Source of the DNA: Tricholomella constricta
Lineage: Eukaryota; Basidiomycota; Agaricomycetes; Agaricales; Lyophyllaceae
Direction: 5' to 3'
Length of the DNA stretch: 64,000 nucleotides
Assembly (NCBI GenBank): GCA_013368375.1
Contig: JAACJP010000002.1
Span: forward strand, 1,116,001 to 1,180,000
In this document: positions 14,947-46,570 of the stretch, piece by piece
How the letters are laid out: every line of letters begins with the position of its first letter
How positions within the stretch are numbered: position 1 is the first letter of the stretch
Program-made: the position numbers and the translations under genes
The notes under the pieces: generated by a model
Seen by the model: the letters and a program-made list of their open reading frames with translations, nothing else
Databases searched by the model: none
What the model was told of the DNA's origin: nothing

Positions 14947-18554
<3,608 letters not shown>

Positions 18555-40144: not shown

Positions 40145-40151
40145 CCTTAGC
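40145..40151. repeat. target-site duplication, left copy
   Basis: CCTTAGC lies immediately outside the left inverted repeat and is repeated exactly at 46564-46570 immediately outside the right one. No shorter or longer duplication fits the element ends. Confidence 0.88.
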
Positions 40152-40174
40152 CCCAGTCAAAACCCCATATGTTG
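40152..40174 (+). repeat. left terminal inverted repeat
   Basis: 23 bp beginning CCCAGTCAAAAC, then one variable base (C here), then CCATATGTTG. It matches the reverse complement of 46541-46563 at every position except the thirteenth. Confidence 0.88.
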
Positions 40175-40417
40175 AGGGATGTTTGGGTCTGATGCGGTCG
40201 GTTTCGGTTCAGTCTATCTGTTGTTCATCTGTTCGTAGCGGTCTATATCAGATAGATACCCATTGTGTCATGCCTCACTTTTCAAAACACTGCACTTCCA
40301 TAGTTTTCTTAAGTTTCACCGACGCGCCGAGGGCGTCGTCCGCGTTTGTTTTGAGTTTGGTCAAGTTTGGTCAGATTCGACGTCTCTCACAGACACCCGT
40401 TTGCGCTACCACCTCCG

Positions 40418-43400
40418 ATGTCATCTGACGGCCTGTGGAACTGCAACTGCCAGCGTTACTGTGGTGGCATAAATGTCAATGTCTCTAAAGCCACATACTA
40501 TAATCATCGACCTTACCGAAATGCTCTGCCCTTGATAAATTCTGCTCTACTTCTCGCTCATCAAACTGAAACCGCTACTGCCGCATCCACCTTCCTGCCG
40601 AGAATGGAACATACTCAGGGACTAGATACAGCTGAGATGACGAAGAGACCTGCGAATAACAACAACTCTCGATGTGCGCACACTGAGGAGGTCTCTGAAT
40701 TTTCGGACAAGAGGCCGAGATTGCAACCCGACTCTGAGGTGAGAATGAAATTAGTACAATTATTTGCTGAGCACCGCCCTTATACATTCCTATCCTGACA
40801 GGAGCACCTCTCTCAGCACAATTCATCAAGTAAGTCATGTCATGTGTCTTTCTGTCGTGAAATGTGTGTGACTTGAAATGTGCTTGACAGGTTTGGACCA
40901 GGCCTCGCCGGCTGCTGCACCTGGAGACGGAGATCTTCTGGACATGGGAGCTGATGCGGGCGATGATGACGATAATGTATCAAGTGAGTAACACTGTGTT
41001 AATCTATTGGGAATAACACCTGATGGAAAATGCGCGCTTGACAGGCTCCTCCGCTGGCAGAACCGTGAACGAAGACCTTCCTGACTTAGCAGGTGCCTAC
41101 GAGGATCGCGTAGACGATGAAGATGACGAAGGCTTGCTACCGCTACCTGTTCTATTCCCAAATAGACCTGTCGGAGAGGATATAAATGATAATTTTGTTC
41201 CCCGCACCGAAGACCTTAGGATTGCTTTAGAATTTAAGAAAGCTTTGGAGGCAGCTTCTCTCGACAACGGCGATCTTGATGCTGAGCAAATCTATGCTCT
41301 GCGAAATCCCACTCAACAAGTCCTCACCATCGACGACAAGGATCTTCTTCTATCGTTGAAACTCTTCATCTCAACAACGAATTCTTCGAACCAGACTTAC
41401 ACGGATGTTCGAGCGGATGTCATGGAGCACCACCCGGAAGACGCAATCCTCTCACACGCTGCAGTGAAGAAAGCCGTCGCCAAATTGACGGGAGTCACAC
41501 CCATTGTAAAAGACATGTGCCCAAACTCGTGCATAGCCTACACCGGCCCCTATTCCCATCTCGAGTCCTGTCCTTACTGTGATGAACCCCGCTATGATCC
41601 TGTGCAGCTGGAGCTCAGTCACGGACGGAAGAAGAATCCCCGGCAACATTTCTTGACTATTCCCTTGGGACCCCAGCTTCAGGCTCTTCAGAGGACAATT
41701 CAAGGTGTACACGACATGGGTCATCGTATGCGATGCACACGGGAGATCCTGAAGGAGCTAGAGCAAAATCACGGCATCATTAAGTCGTTCAATGATATAT
41801 ACCACGGACGAGCTTACCTGGAAGCTATTGCTCGGGGTGACATCAGAACCGAAGACATGGTGCTCATGTTCTCGATGGATGGAGCACAGCTATACCGAGA
41901 CAAGCAATCTGACTGTTGGATTTATATCTGGATTGTATTTGACCTTTCACCAGATTTACGGTACAAGCGGAAGCGCGTCCTCCCTGGTGGTTTCATTCCT
42001 GGACCACATAATCCCCGGAACCCCGACTCATTTTCGTTTACCGGTTTTCATCATCTCGCTGCTTTACAGAAGGAAGGCCTTCGAGTGTGGAATGCATCGA
42101 CAAATGAGGTTTTTACCTCATACCCTTTCCTGCATCTAGGTGGTGCCGATGGACCAGGAAGCACTCACTTTACCGGCCTGGTGGGTCATCAGGGAGCCTA
42201 CCCCTGCTGCCTCTATTGTGATGTAAAAGGTCGACACAAGCCTGGGGGACCCCAATACTACCCTGCCCTTCTCAAGCCAGTCAATTATGATGTTCCTGGA
42301 TGCAATCATAGTGATATCCATCCCAGTGAGATCCGCGGAGGATCATCAAAAGAGTATGCAGAGAATCTCAATTACCTCCTCAATTCTCGCAACCCGACTG
42401 ATTACAAGCAGCGCCGGAAGGACACAGGAATTTCTTCTATCAGTATATTTAGTGGATTGCCTGCCCGCCATCGTCTGCCTCTTCCACTGGGCTTTCCTGG
42501 AGACTCCATGCACGTACCGACTCTTAATCTTGGGGAATTGCTTCCCCCTCTCTGGCGAGGAATGTTTCAGTGTGCTCCCAGTGATGATATAACAACCTGG
42601 GATTGGGCTGTACTTGTGGGAGATGTTTGGAAGGATCACGGCGCTGCTGTTGCAAAGGCCAGACCATACATCCCTGGCTGCTATGACCGTCCTCCACGGA
42701 ATATTGCAGAAAAGATCTCCAGTGGCTACAAGGCAAAGGAATGGCAAAGTTACTTTTACGGACTTGCTCCCGCTCTCCTCCACAACATCCTTCCGAAGCC
42801 ATATTGGCAAAATTTCTGTAAACTTGTTCACGCCATTCGCATCCTTCATCAACGAACAATTCCTCGCGCACAGTTACAAGATGCTCATCAATACCTCCAA
42901 GAGTTTCACGAGGCATTCGAGCTTTTGTATTACCAACGACGAACAGACCGCCTTCACTTTATGCGACCCTGCCTCCACGCTCTACTTCACCTCACATCTG
43001 AGACTGTTCGACTGGGACCAGTGCCACTATACTCAACGTGGACTATGGAGCGTGTCATTGGTGATCTTGGTGGTGAAATTAAACAACCATCAAATCCTTA
43101 TCAAAATCTCTCGGAACGTGGTGTTCGACGTTGTCAAATTAATGCTCTCAAAGCTAGCTTTCCTGCTCTGGACCGTGCACAAGAGTCTCTACCTCAGGGA
43201 GCACTTGATATAGGTGGAGGATATGTGCTGCTTCGAGCAAAGGACAGCTATGCACAGAACATTGTTGGACATGCAGGCAATGTTATTAGGTCGTACCTGT
43301 TAGAAGAAGAGGAAAAGCTAGGCAACCACCCACCAGCTGATTGGATCGGACCAAAGGTAGTTCGATGGGCACGCCTTCGTCTCCCAACAGGTCAAGTTGC

Positions 43401-43851
43401 TCGATCAGCTTGGAAAGAGAATACAAAGCCTTTGGATAAGCTACGACGCTCACGATGTGTCAAGGTATGGATCATTACTTGTTCTGGTGAATTTATATTC
43501 ATTCTGCAGCCCTTACAGATTTTATCAAACGGAAACATCACATTTGCGGATGTAGAATTTTACTTCAATGCTGTTGTCGGTGGAACACGTCGCCACCTTG
43601 CGCTGGTCTCTTGCTATGGATTGCCTGATAATACCTTATTCAGGGAGTCCTTTTACACAGTTTGGTCTATCGCAAAGCTTGGAGCCGAGGGTCTCTCTGT
43701 CATCGAAGCAAAGTCAATCCAGGCTGTAGTGTCTATACAGCCGCACGACCACCATGTCATTGTTGGTGACACTCGTTATTTTGTGTGGGAGCAGATGGGG
43801 CTAGAAATGACGCTACTATCCGACACTCTACCTATCGAGGAAGAAAACTGA
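40418..43851 (+). CDS. Tnp2-like transposase
   Basis: Exons are 40418-40738, 40802-40829, 40891-40983 and 41045-43851, giving 1,082 residues. The N-terminus has a Cys cluster (CNCQRYCGG ... TYYNHRPYR) and an acidic linker. A second zinc cluster follows (MCPNSCIAYTG...CPYCDEPRY), then the core: FSMDGAQLYRDK, GGFIPGPHNPRN, HHLAALQKEGL, ADGPG, CCLYC, PGDSMHVPTLNLG, ARPYIPG, TMERVIGDLGGEIKQ, QINALKA. These are the landmarks of transposase family Tnp2 common in agaricomycetes. Candidate DDE residues are D at 41878-41880, D at 42502-42504 and E at 43048-43050 (inferred). An in-frame 45-nt GT-AG segment (43465-43509) may be a fifth intron, giving 1,067 residues if removed. It would cut and rejoin DNA at the element ends. 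Confidence 0.85.
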
Positions 43852-44243
43852 CAGGACAATGACGAGGGATAACATTCAAATAGAGTCAAGTAAAATACAC
43901 TTTATAACCAGATGACATGGAGGAGGAGGAGTGTTCGTAGAGTGCGAATGACATACCTTTGTAGCACTAGAAGTATTCGGCGTGGCCACGTGATGGTCGA
44001 AAAAACGGTGATTTTTTTGGTTTCTGTCTGTGGTTTCGACAGCGTTGTCCTGTCTTGAGGAAATAATGGACCCACACACCTTGTTGGGAGGCCATAACGT
44101 GTTCTTCTCCCCAGGGCCGCTGGCGTATAATTCTGTCAACCAGGAAGGCCTAGCGTTCACGCCGACAGTGAGTTTACGGTTTTATATTCAATTTAGAACT
44201 AAAAGAACACACCTCGCATTAGAAAACATCGATATCCAGTAGC

Positions 44244-46272
44244 ATGCTGCAAAACCTTCGCAACGCAAGCCACGAGATGCTTGTCCAGTCCGGAAACCCC
44301 ACTTACAGCCAGGTCCTCGTCAAAATGATTGCTCTCGAGGCTGAGCTAAAAGGAATAAAGTGAGGTCCAATGCTCCTGTAAATCACAATAAAGCTATACC
44401 TTGTGGTCCATGTTAGGTCGTCGTATGATCTAATATTGGATAGAATACCATCAGCAGCAGGCAGCTCGGTCGGCCAATTGACGGCTGCCACCTCATCAAG
44501 TCCCAAAGTTACTTACCTTCAGGACGACTATCCGCTCGTGAAGTTTTGGCACGAGAAGGACTGGAACCAGCATAAACGGAGCAAGAAGAATGATGATGCC
44601 GGCATACACCAGCGATCGTCGAAGGGCAGATCGAGGGACCACGACGCAAGCCGCAATACACTGGCTTATATACAGGACAAGTTAGGTGTAGTTGTTACTG
44701 AAAAACAGGCATCTGACCTCTGTACGCGTGCACGGTCGATCTGGGAGTACCTCGCCACAGTTGGAATGGCCCCCAAATCGTGGGGGAAAGCCTCGGCACC
44801 TGCTGTGGCATACTACCTCGACAACATGTACTACGATAACGATAATTTGCGACTGTGCGAGGGCAATTGGAAAGTTGGTCGTCTTGCCACTGATATTTAT
44901 CCAGGGTGGGCTCGTGGGAGGAAGGATCTGGGAGGAGGAGACGAAATTGCGATTAAGAGCGAACCAGGAGACAGCGGCGAGTCTGACGTACCAGCACCGA
45001 GCGCTACAAAACGGAAGGATCCCCCCCAGTCTTCATCTGCCCCTGCGAGGCCCGAAAAGCATGCAAAAAAGACGGAGGAGAGCATCGCCAACAGCGTGAG
45101 TGTATACATCAACCCATCACTGTGTCCCTTACTCTCGCACGAGTCAGCGCTAAACTCCGTGCTGCTCCCAGGCGCCGAACTCCTCTCAACTCATCTTCCC
45201 CACGTCAAGCACGACAGTGGCCTTAGAATGCCCTCCTAAACAAAACCTGTCAACTCGCAGTGGATCACCGCCATCCACATCTATCACTGCCGCAGCTACA
45301 CCAACCCGAGACGACTTCATCCATCCCAGTCTACGGCCATCTTTATCTCAAGGCCCACAGGACACCGCGCCAATAATCACCTCGCTTTCAGGGGTAGGTA
45401 CTCTCGTGGACTCCCCGGTGTCAGAAGAAACCTCTGAATCATCCACGCCATCACTGTCTGCGAGCGATGCGGTCCCGAAGATACCCCACGAACCTACTGA
45501 CGACGCCTCGACGGCACATATGAGTGCAGAAAATGCCGAGGAAGCGCAATCTAAACCAGGAGATCCTTCCAAGATTTCGGTGAGTTTTTTAAAGGTCCTT
45601 CACTGTAGTCTTACTCACAATAGGATTTACTTTACCGGCGCACTTTTTAGTTGAATTTGGTGGACCCGTTGTGAGTTTTTCAGAGGAGAGTATCCTCCGT
45701 GAATTTATCGTAACTCGACCACAGTGCGCCTTCGTCTCGATTCAATTTGGACACATCGCGTGTTTCCGCTCTACAAAGACCTTCGTCGGATTCTCTTCAC
45801 GGTTAGATCTTCTCACCGCTTCCTGCCCTCACTCTGATCTTTTTGTCTCCCAGGTGTACCCGAGTCTGGAGACAGCAGACCCGGACCCGACATGTACGAT
45901 GGTTCCTTGTCAAGCACGGTCCACACCGCCGATCCCGTTTCCAGTTTGACGAAGCCGATGTCCTCCATTCTCGCATCAACACTCTTCAAGCCATCAAAAA
46001 CATCTTGTTCTGAATTGTAAGGTCTTTCTTTCATTATTACTTCATTATTAAGACTGACAAAACCATGTCTTCTAGGAACCTTTTCGGCATCGAGTACTGC
46101 AAGACACATGCAAGACCAACAAAGTCCGAAGTCAAGACCGCCTTGGACACGCTCTCCCCAACAGAACGGCTGGTACGAGGCTTCTATTCTACAGCAAACC
46201 TCCTTCTGATGTGGTCTCCAGCACTGGACAAAGCTTCGCACTGAGAAGCTGGCTGCAAAGAAGGGCGTGTAG
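44244..46272 (+). CDS. transposon-borne second gene, function unknown
   Basis: Exons include 44244-44359, 44417-45095, 45172-45579, a region around 45725 to 46016, and the last pieces to TAG 46270-46272. The joins near 45580-45725 are uncertain. The N-terminus is helical (MLQNLRNASHEMLVQSGNPT, VKMIALEAELKGIKSSYDLI). A conserved-looking middle follows: YPLVKFWHEKDWNQ, SRNTLAYIQDKLGVVVTEKQ, LCTRARSIWEYLATVGMAPKSWGKA, LRLCEGNWKVGRLATDIYPGW. Next come a Pro/Ser-rich acidic stretch, then LDSIWTHRVFPLYKDLRR, NLFGIEYCKTH, LDTLSPTERL and KLAAKKGV at the end. Similar proteins are multi-copy in agaricomycete genomes. Lying inside the element in the same direction, it is probably an accessory transposition or regulatory protein; this is inference. 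Confidence 0.65.
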
Positions 46273-46540
46273 CATTTGGATAGCTGCTTCCCCGCGCCCG
46301 ACAACATTCTATATACTTTAAATGAGCTGTTTCGTAGCAGTACAAGATAATTTCAATCACATTTATTGATGCAAAAAAGCGTACCGAGACTGACAGATGT
46401 CGACATACCCAAACCGATACTCGCATCTGCAACTCACATATCATGGCAGACCTCAGCATATTTTCATCTGCTATAGTCTAAATTTCGGTCGCCATCTGCT
46501 CTCAACGGCAATACCGATCACAACCGTTCAGAGCCGATCA

Positions 46541-46563
46541 CAACATATGGAGTTTTGACTGGG
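46541..46563 (-). repeat. right terminal inverted repeat
   Basis: 23 bp ending GTTTTGACTGGG on the plus strand. Its reverse complement equals the left repeat except at position 13 (T instead of C). Confidence 0.88.
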
Positions 46564-46570
46564 CCTTAGC
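46564..46570. repeat. target-site duplication, right copy
   Basis: An exact copy of CCTTAGC, directly adjoining the right inverted repeat. Confidence 0.88.

Follow-up and report, generated by a model that had tools for sequence, protein, structure and literature searches.

Our subject is a DNA transposon of Tricholomella constricta (Agaricales; Lyophyllaceae), found at positions 40152-46563 of the stretch of DNA that we analyzed. This stretch, the window, comprises 64,000 nucleotides of contig C2 in a 44-Mb genome of 118 contigs. We consider it very probable that these 6,412 bp are a complete element, likely of the cut-and-paste kind, which duplicates 7 bp of its target, encodes a Tnp2-type transposase with the predicted fold of RAG1 and Transib, and carries a second gene (gene 2) whose product is likely a DNA-binding helper. 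The unusual feature, absent from the original prediction made on this DNA, is the pairing of a Tnp2/RAG-type transposase with 7-bp duplications.

Ends, copies, and target duplications

The element is bounded by 23-bp inverted repeats. Re-checking bore out the original prediction that they match at 22 of 23 positions and that CCTTAGC flanks both, and also that two genes run in the same direction, together occupying most of the interior. A search of the element's own genome with its whole DNA sequence returned three places, all of them full length. The second copy (C18:85636-92047), again 6,412 bp, has 8 differences from the window copy and no gaps; the third (C2:1198522-1204909, minus strand) is 6,388 bp long and 86.3% identical to the window copy. 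Each sits in a duplication of its own: CCTTAGC in the window, CTTCAGC around the C18 copy and CCTCAGT around the 86% copy. The inverted ends are not there by chance, because the C18 copy has identical ends and length yet another 7-bp duplication, and because the 23-bp end, sought with up to three mismatches, occurs six times in the 44-Mb genome, every time at an end of one of the three full copies (reversed control, 0). Copies of the window family with differing ends were looked for in the genome, and none was found. With its nearest copy only 8 differences away in 6,412, with common ends and with separate 7-bp duplications, the element fits its earlier description as complete, recent, and of autonomous type; it is complete and probably young. 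All 8 differences are transitions, five of which arose in the window copy and three in C18, as polarized by the third copy. By eye, three of the four changes towards A or T lie at CpG.

Relatives in the same genome carry ends of the same kind. An element on C15, 5,448 bp long with ends CCCAGTCAAC and the duplication CTTCAAG, encodes a transposase 42% identical in protein to that of the window. A pattern for C15-type ends, built from the C15 and C30 elements with no target condition imposed, found eight matches and none in the control: three pairs (C15, C30, and a second element on C2) and two single ends. The C30 element is 1,895 bp long with the duplication GTTGAAC and the second C2 element 2,260 bp with GATTAGT. 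The two are related to each other, and tblastn detected no transposase similarity in either. The C15 relative and these two non-autonomous copies have CCCAGTCA ends in common with the window family. As for the single ends, at C20:10526 and C23:15763 (loci L088 and L089), both lie 10-16 kb from contig starts; the end search gave a partner for neither, and both were left out of the insertion count.

This leaves six two-ended insertions. The duplication is exactly 7 bp in all six and its sequence differs between insertions. Every one of the 12 ends conforms to CCCAG..CTGGG; none has the CAC..GTG termini of CACTA/EnSpm. Position 3 of the duplication is T and position 5 is A in 6/6, within a symmetrized consensus, S-Y-T-N-A-R-S, that has exceptions at its outer positions. 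At the T-N-A frequency of the window (0.054), five insertions (C30 set aside) would agree by chance with a probability of about 5e-7, a figure for positions that were noticed post hoc.

For an empty-site test, the six rejoined sites were queried against the element's own genome. Each insertion's two flanks were recovered at their own locus, and there was one extra match, C8:12484-12591. This sequence, 91% identical, runs across the rejoined junction of the second C2 element and is a paralogous empty site. It holds a single GATTAGT and aligns gaplessly at the junction; with both copies left in, the alignment needs a 7-base gap. The other five insertions, among them the window's, which the original prediction had singled out as the site to look for, gave no paralogous empty site in the genome.

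The transposase and gene 2

The transposase gene has five exons encoding 1,064 amino acids in the window, and all its introns are GT-AG, as they are in the other two full copies. The 1,082 uninterrupted codons originally claimed are therefore wrong: the longest unspliced frame has 944 codons (942 from the ATG), and the gene is spliced. The candidate DDE residues fared better, with D, D, and E kept in 66, 65, and 66 of 66 aligned sequences, the window's among them. Between the second D and the E, all 66 transposases have H(3)H and all 66 have C(3)C; two sister Tnp2 frames from this genome carry C(2)C instead. A Cys-rich stretch can be made out by eye at the N terminus. The knuckle reads C-C-L-Y-C in the window copy and C-R-L-Y-C in most homologues, the residue beside the first knuckle Cys being Arg in 63 of 66, Cys in 2 (the window counted), and His in 1. 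At 42208, the window copy differs from the other two in having T for C, at a CpG in those sister copies, and this replaces Arg with Cys. A Cys for Arg next to the knuckle is a reason for caution about the activity of the window copy.

The best protein match in the database is NCBI 'hypothetical protein D9615_001883 [Tricholomella constricta]'. At least 629 homologues were found at E <= 0.001, with the best 7,995 candidates scored. Among the 120 listed, those with a named organism all come from mushroom-forming fungi, and they go by the names hypothetical, uncharacterized, Tnp2, or transposase-domain protein. PF02992 (Tnp2 / Transposase_21) was matched by 19/19 aligned members (the window and 18 homologues) at E <= 0.01, and it was the only Pfam family matched among them at that threshold; the C15 relative reaches 40.4 bits, above the curated cut-off of 28.6. 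Judged by these sequence comparisons, the window transposase is a member of an Agaricomycete Tnp2 (PF02992) clade. An AlphaFold model of the transposase has RAG1 as its first structural match and Transib as its next, and the RAG1/Transib fold is predicted for its core.

The nine exons of gene 2 encode 577 amino acids, and the spliced protein matches NCBI D9615_001866 ('hypothetical protein') at 100% identity from end to end. With the best 7,993 candidates scored, its database relatives were 4 proteins, from Tricholomella and Lyophyllum atratum only; a second search, by alignment, returned the same 4 with the best 7,990 candidates scored, and others may be missed. Diverged pieces of gene 2 lie 3' of the transposase and on the same strand both in the C15 element and in a relict on C48 (below). 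Between the window copy and the 86% copy, the ratio of non-synonymous to synonymous substitution rates (dN/dS) is 0.136 for the transposase (core, 0.087); gene 2 has 0.254, and 0.116 in the 194 codons of its core. At 0.14 and 0.25, both genes look to be under purifying selection. The C-terminal helices of gene 2 resemble an HMG box by eye, a likeness that no tool supports.

Beyond the gene ends, ATCTG/CAGAT occurs 8 times in the 511 bp of the window copy's two subterminal stretches, where the interior averages 1.1 and reaches 5 at most, and 11 times in the subterminal DNA of the 86% copy. The motif was picked post hoc, so its enrichment there is a lead only. Near the element end, in the right subterminal DNA, the window copy has two CGATCACAAC and the 86% copy one.

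Table 1. Features of the element and its target duplication, in window coordinates
Feature	Position	Strand	Basis or note
Left target duplication copy, CCTTAGC, 7 bp	40145..40151	.	sequence
Left terminal inverted repeat CCCAGTCAAAACCCCATATGTTG	40152..40174	+	end comparison among copies
Left subterminal DNA	40175..40417	.	motif count
Transposase gene, 1,064 amino acids	40418..43851	+	splice model, PF02992, conservation
Transposase exons	40418-40738, 40802-40829, 40891-40983, 41045-43464, 43519-43851	+	splice model
Candidate DDE codons	D 41878-41880, D 42148-42150, E 43048-43050	+	D286, D376, E676 of 41023 frame
C(3)C knuckle CxxxC, between second D and E	42205..42219	+	alignment
Gene 2, 577 amino acids	44066..46272	+	splice model
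Gene 2 exons 1-5	44066-44167, 44223-44359, 44417-45095, 45172-45579, 45651-45670	+	splice model
Gene 2 exons 6-9	45725-45801, 45854-46016, 46076-46172, 46222-46272	+	splice model
Right subterminal DNA	46273..46540	.	motif count
Right terminal inverted repeat, 22/23 identical to left	46541..46563	-	end comparison among copies
Right target duplication copy, CCTTAGC, 7 bp	46564..46570	.	sequence

The C48 relict comes in two pieces. One (C48:139744-141741, plus strand, L033) covers transposase residues 59-727; the other (C48:184602-182840, minus strand, L034) covers residues 727-936 together with gene 2, on the opposite strand some 43 kb off. Both break at residue 727, and the split may reflect an inversion or a misassembly. 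Recognizable ends were not found in the stretches examined around both pieces, nor within the few kb examined around the sister Tnp2 copies on C36 and C14 and three others. Shorter probes gave further matches. CCCAGTCAAAAC had 18 in the genome (reversed control, 7), of which 12 lie beyond the ends of the window family, and none of the 12 extends like a window-family end, as judged by eye over 60 bases. Three mutually similar repeats at C14:701060, 736656, and 755391 (L020-L022) start CCCAGTCAAAACTAA.ATAG, have no partner end in their 3-kb loci, and are possibly another family sharing the first 12 bases. NYTNARNCCCAGTCA had 23 matches (control, 11): 8 known ends, 2 that are the C30 pair, and 13 single ones. 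All 13 were inspected by eye, and none continues as a known end; five belong to one dispersed repeat, TTCAACCCCAGTCATTCCAGATGACC, at C11:125796, C33:124346, C45:296795, C70:33510, and C72:12547, a chance mimic of target plus end. A search for relatives in viral_contigs gave 44 pattern matches, none of them confirmed. Elsewhere in the window, open frames at 15103-17503 (plus strand) resemble, by eye, exons of a P-type cation ATPase.

A proposed course of transposition and its rivals

We propose that the transposase, perhaps with the gene 2 product, would bind the CCCAGTCA ends and the ATCTG-rich subterminal DNA and pair both ends. Its DDE active site would excise the element, with a first-strand nick and a hairpin predicted as for RAG1 and Transib. 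The ends would then be joined to the target with a 7-nucleotide stagger centered on T-N-A (S-Y-T-N-A-R-S), and gap repair would turn this stagger into the 7-bp duplication. Gene 2 would have a helper role comparable to that of TNPA in En/Spm, where TNPA plus TNPD make up a two-protein system. A broader proposal, to which we give an even chance, is that the element belongs to an Agaricomycete-wide RAG1-fold lineage, marked by the C(3)C knuckle and CCCAG..CTGGG ends, in which the cut would have widened from 2-5 to 7 nucleotides with the T-N-A target core of its CMC relatives kept, and transposition would take two proteins, one of them a dedicated helper.

Several points weigh against our account. 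Mobility, excision, and the 7-nucleotide cut we infer from sequence, and the hairpin and the role of gene 2 we likewise put forward as inferred steps. The 7-bp rule comes from six insertions in one genome. Of these, C30 first came up in a search whose pattern demanded Y-T-N-A-R before the end, so that it bears independently on the 7-bp length but not on the target consensus; the second C2 element was found with an end pattern derived from C15 and C30. The paralogous empty site concerns one of the six insertions, a non-autonomous copy whose ends are of C15 type and which falls outside the window family. Against PF02992, the window frame scores 21.3 bits and the protein of the 86% copy 17.6, both below the curated 28.6, so the window's Tnp2 membership rests on its homologues. 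The Cys pair has the form C(3)C, against the C(2)C given for the CMCT clade. Gene 2 had no Pfam match in the profile search, its structure model is unreliable (predicted local distance difference test score, pLDDT, of 35, from 4 sequences), and five of the six differences over the 32 codons compared in its next-to-last exon are non-synonymous.

The role of gene 2 is where the strongest rival lies. That gene 2 holds the same place in both lineages, that its core is under purifying selection (0.116 over 194 codons), and that En/Spm, with TNPA plus TNPD, offers a two-protein precedent all speak against its being selfish or host-acting cargo (anti-silencing, for example) outside the transposition machinery. 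Such cargo is nonetheless a possibility we take seriously while leaning the other way: the Pfam search gave no recognizable DNA-binding domain, the middle of the protein is long, variable, and disordered-looking, and TET/JBP cargo is described for other fungal elements in passages of PMC12730594. The transposase itself might be a passenger, with another enzyme producing the 7-bp duplications in trans, and the non-autonomous copies with the same end type do imply that the ends are usable in trans. This is very improbable, however, given a transposase and gene 2 within CCCAGTCA ends in two lineages at 42-43% protein identity, both genes being under purifying selection. An ordinary CACTA/EnSpm element, whose 3-bp duplication fell by accident within a longer shared sequence, would account for a Tnp2-family transposase and for the T-N-A in the middle of every duplication, which resembles the TWA that an excerpt of PMC4079192 gives for Chapaev3. 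But all seven bases match in 6/6 insertions while differing between them, the empty site carries one GATTAGT, and the termini are CCCAG..CTGGG, not CAC..GTG, making this a very improbable account. An element like hAT7, a fungal group with duplications of the same length (excerpt of PMC12730594), has next to no probability, as PF02992 is the sole Pfam family matched at E <= 0.01 among the 19 aligned members and the predicted fold matches RAG1/Transib.

Plavaka, the first guess from the Agaricomycete host and the Cys-rich N terminus, was rejected: the transposase had no PF18759 match at E <= 1, and hhalign gave a probability of 6.6% against seven Plavaka frames from the same genome. The Plavaka profile PF18759 has at least 144 matches in this genome, many with stop codons, compared with three full copies of the window element.

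Comparison with known transposons

The length of a target duplication reflects the spacing of the two transposase active sites on the target, and it is used in transposon classification. If our account of the element is true, a 7-bp spacing around the same T-N-A core in a group with the RAG fold would indicate that this geometry can change within the parent clade of the immune recombinase, and would caution against classing elements by duplication length alone. What deserves notice is a RAG-fold Tnp2 transposase with 7-bp duplications in 6/6 insertions of one genome, supported by one empty site. The family of the transposase is large, and its end pattern can now be used for searches.

In structural matches, the window transposase is 10-12% identical to RAG1, BbRAGL, and Transib, and the 7 bp seen here in 6/6 differ from the 5-bp duplications of Transib and RAG. 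With CACTA/EnSpm elements, it shares the transposase family, a DDE site with Cys and His pairs between the second D and the E, and a two-gene layout like the TNPD/TNPA of En/Spm. The window family departs from them in having 7 bp for 3 bp, CCCAG..CTGGG for CAC..GTG, and C(3)C for C(2)C (PMC12730594, in part). The literature searched, with Repbase and supplements outside its scope, yielded no 7-bp Tnp2, EnSpm, or CACTA element, and priority is uncertain. PMC4455052, in the part consulted, covers both EnSpm and the '7-bp TSD' (target-site duplication), a phrase it applies to hAT; CMC, Plavaka, and KDZ families come up in excerpts of two papers on Marasmius oreades (PMC9674265, PMC8290104).

The CMCT clade, as portrayed in passages of Kojima 2025 (PMC12730594), mostly has CA..TG termini, duplications of 2 to 5 bp, and a DDE site with C(2)C and H(3-4)H between the second D and the E. 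The same passages place Plavaka in this clade, of which Transib is another member. Plavaka is abundant in the Tricholomella genome, but it has duplications of 2 or 3 bp, TGT or CATCA ends, and a PF18759 transposase that the window's does not match. The hAT7 elements of rust fungi, again from those passages, share the 7-bp duplications, with a transposase of another superfamily. CNIRT6 and CNEST, two mobile CMC elements of Cryptococcus and thus fungal CMC transposons too, make 3-bp and TA duplications, according to part of PMC12810828. Chapaev3, a CMC group with 3-bp duplications, CAC ends, and animal hosts, has TWA at its target (PMC4079192, excerpt), where the window family has T-N-A; the same target core may be recognized in both, with the two strand transfers of the window family falling two bases further out on each side. 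The 7-bp rule thus departs from the 2-5 bp of CMCT, from Plavaka, from Chapaev3, and from CNIRT6/CNEST, while the T-N-A center agrees with Chapaev3.

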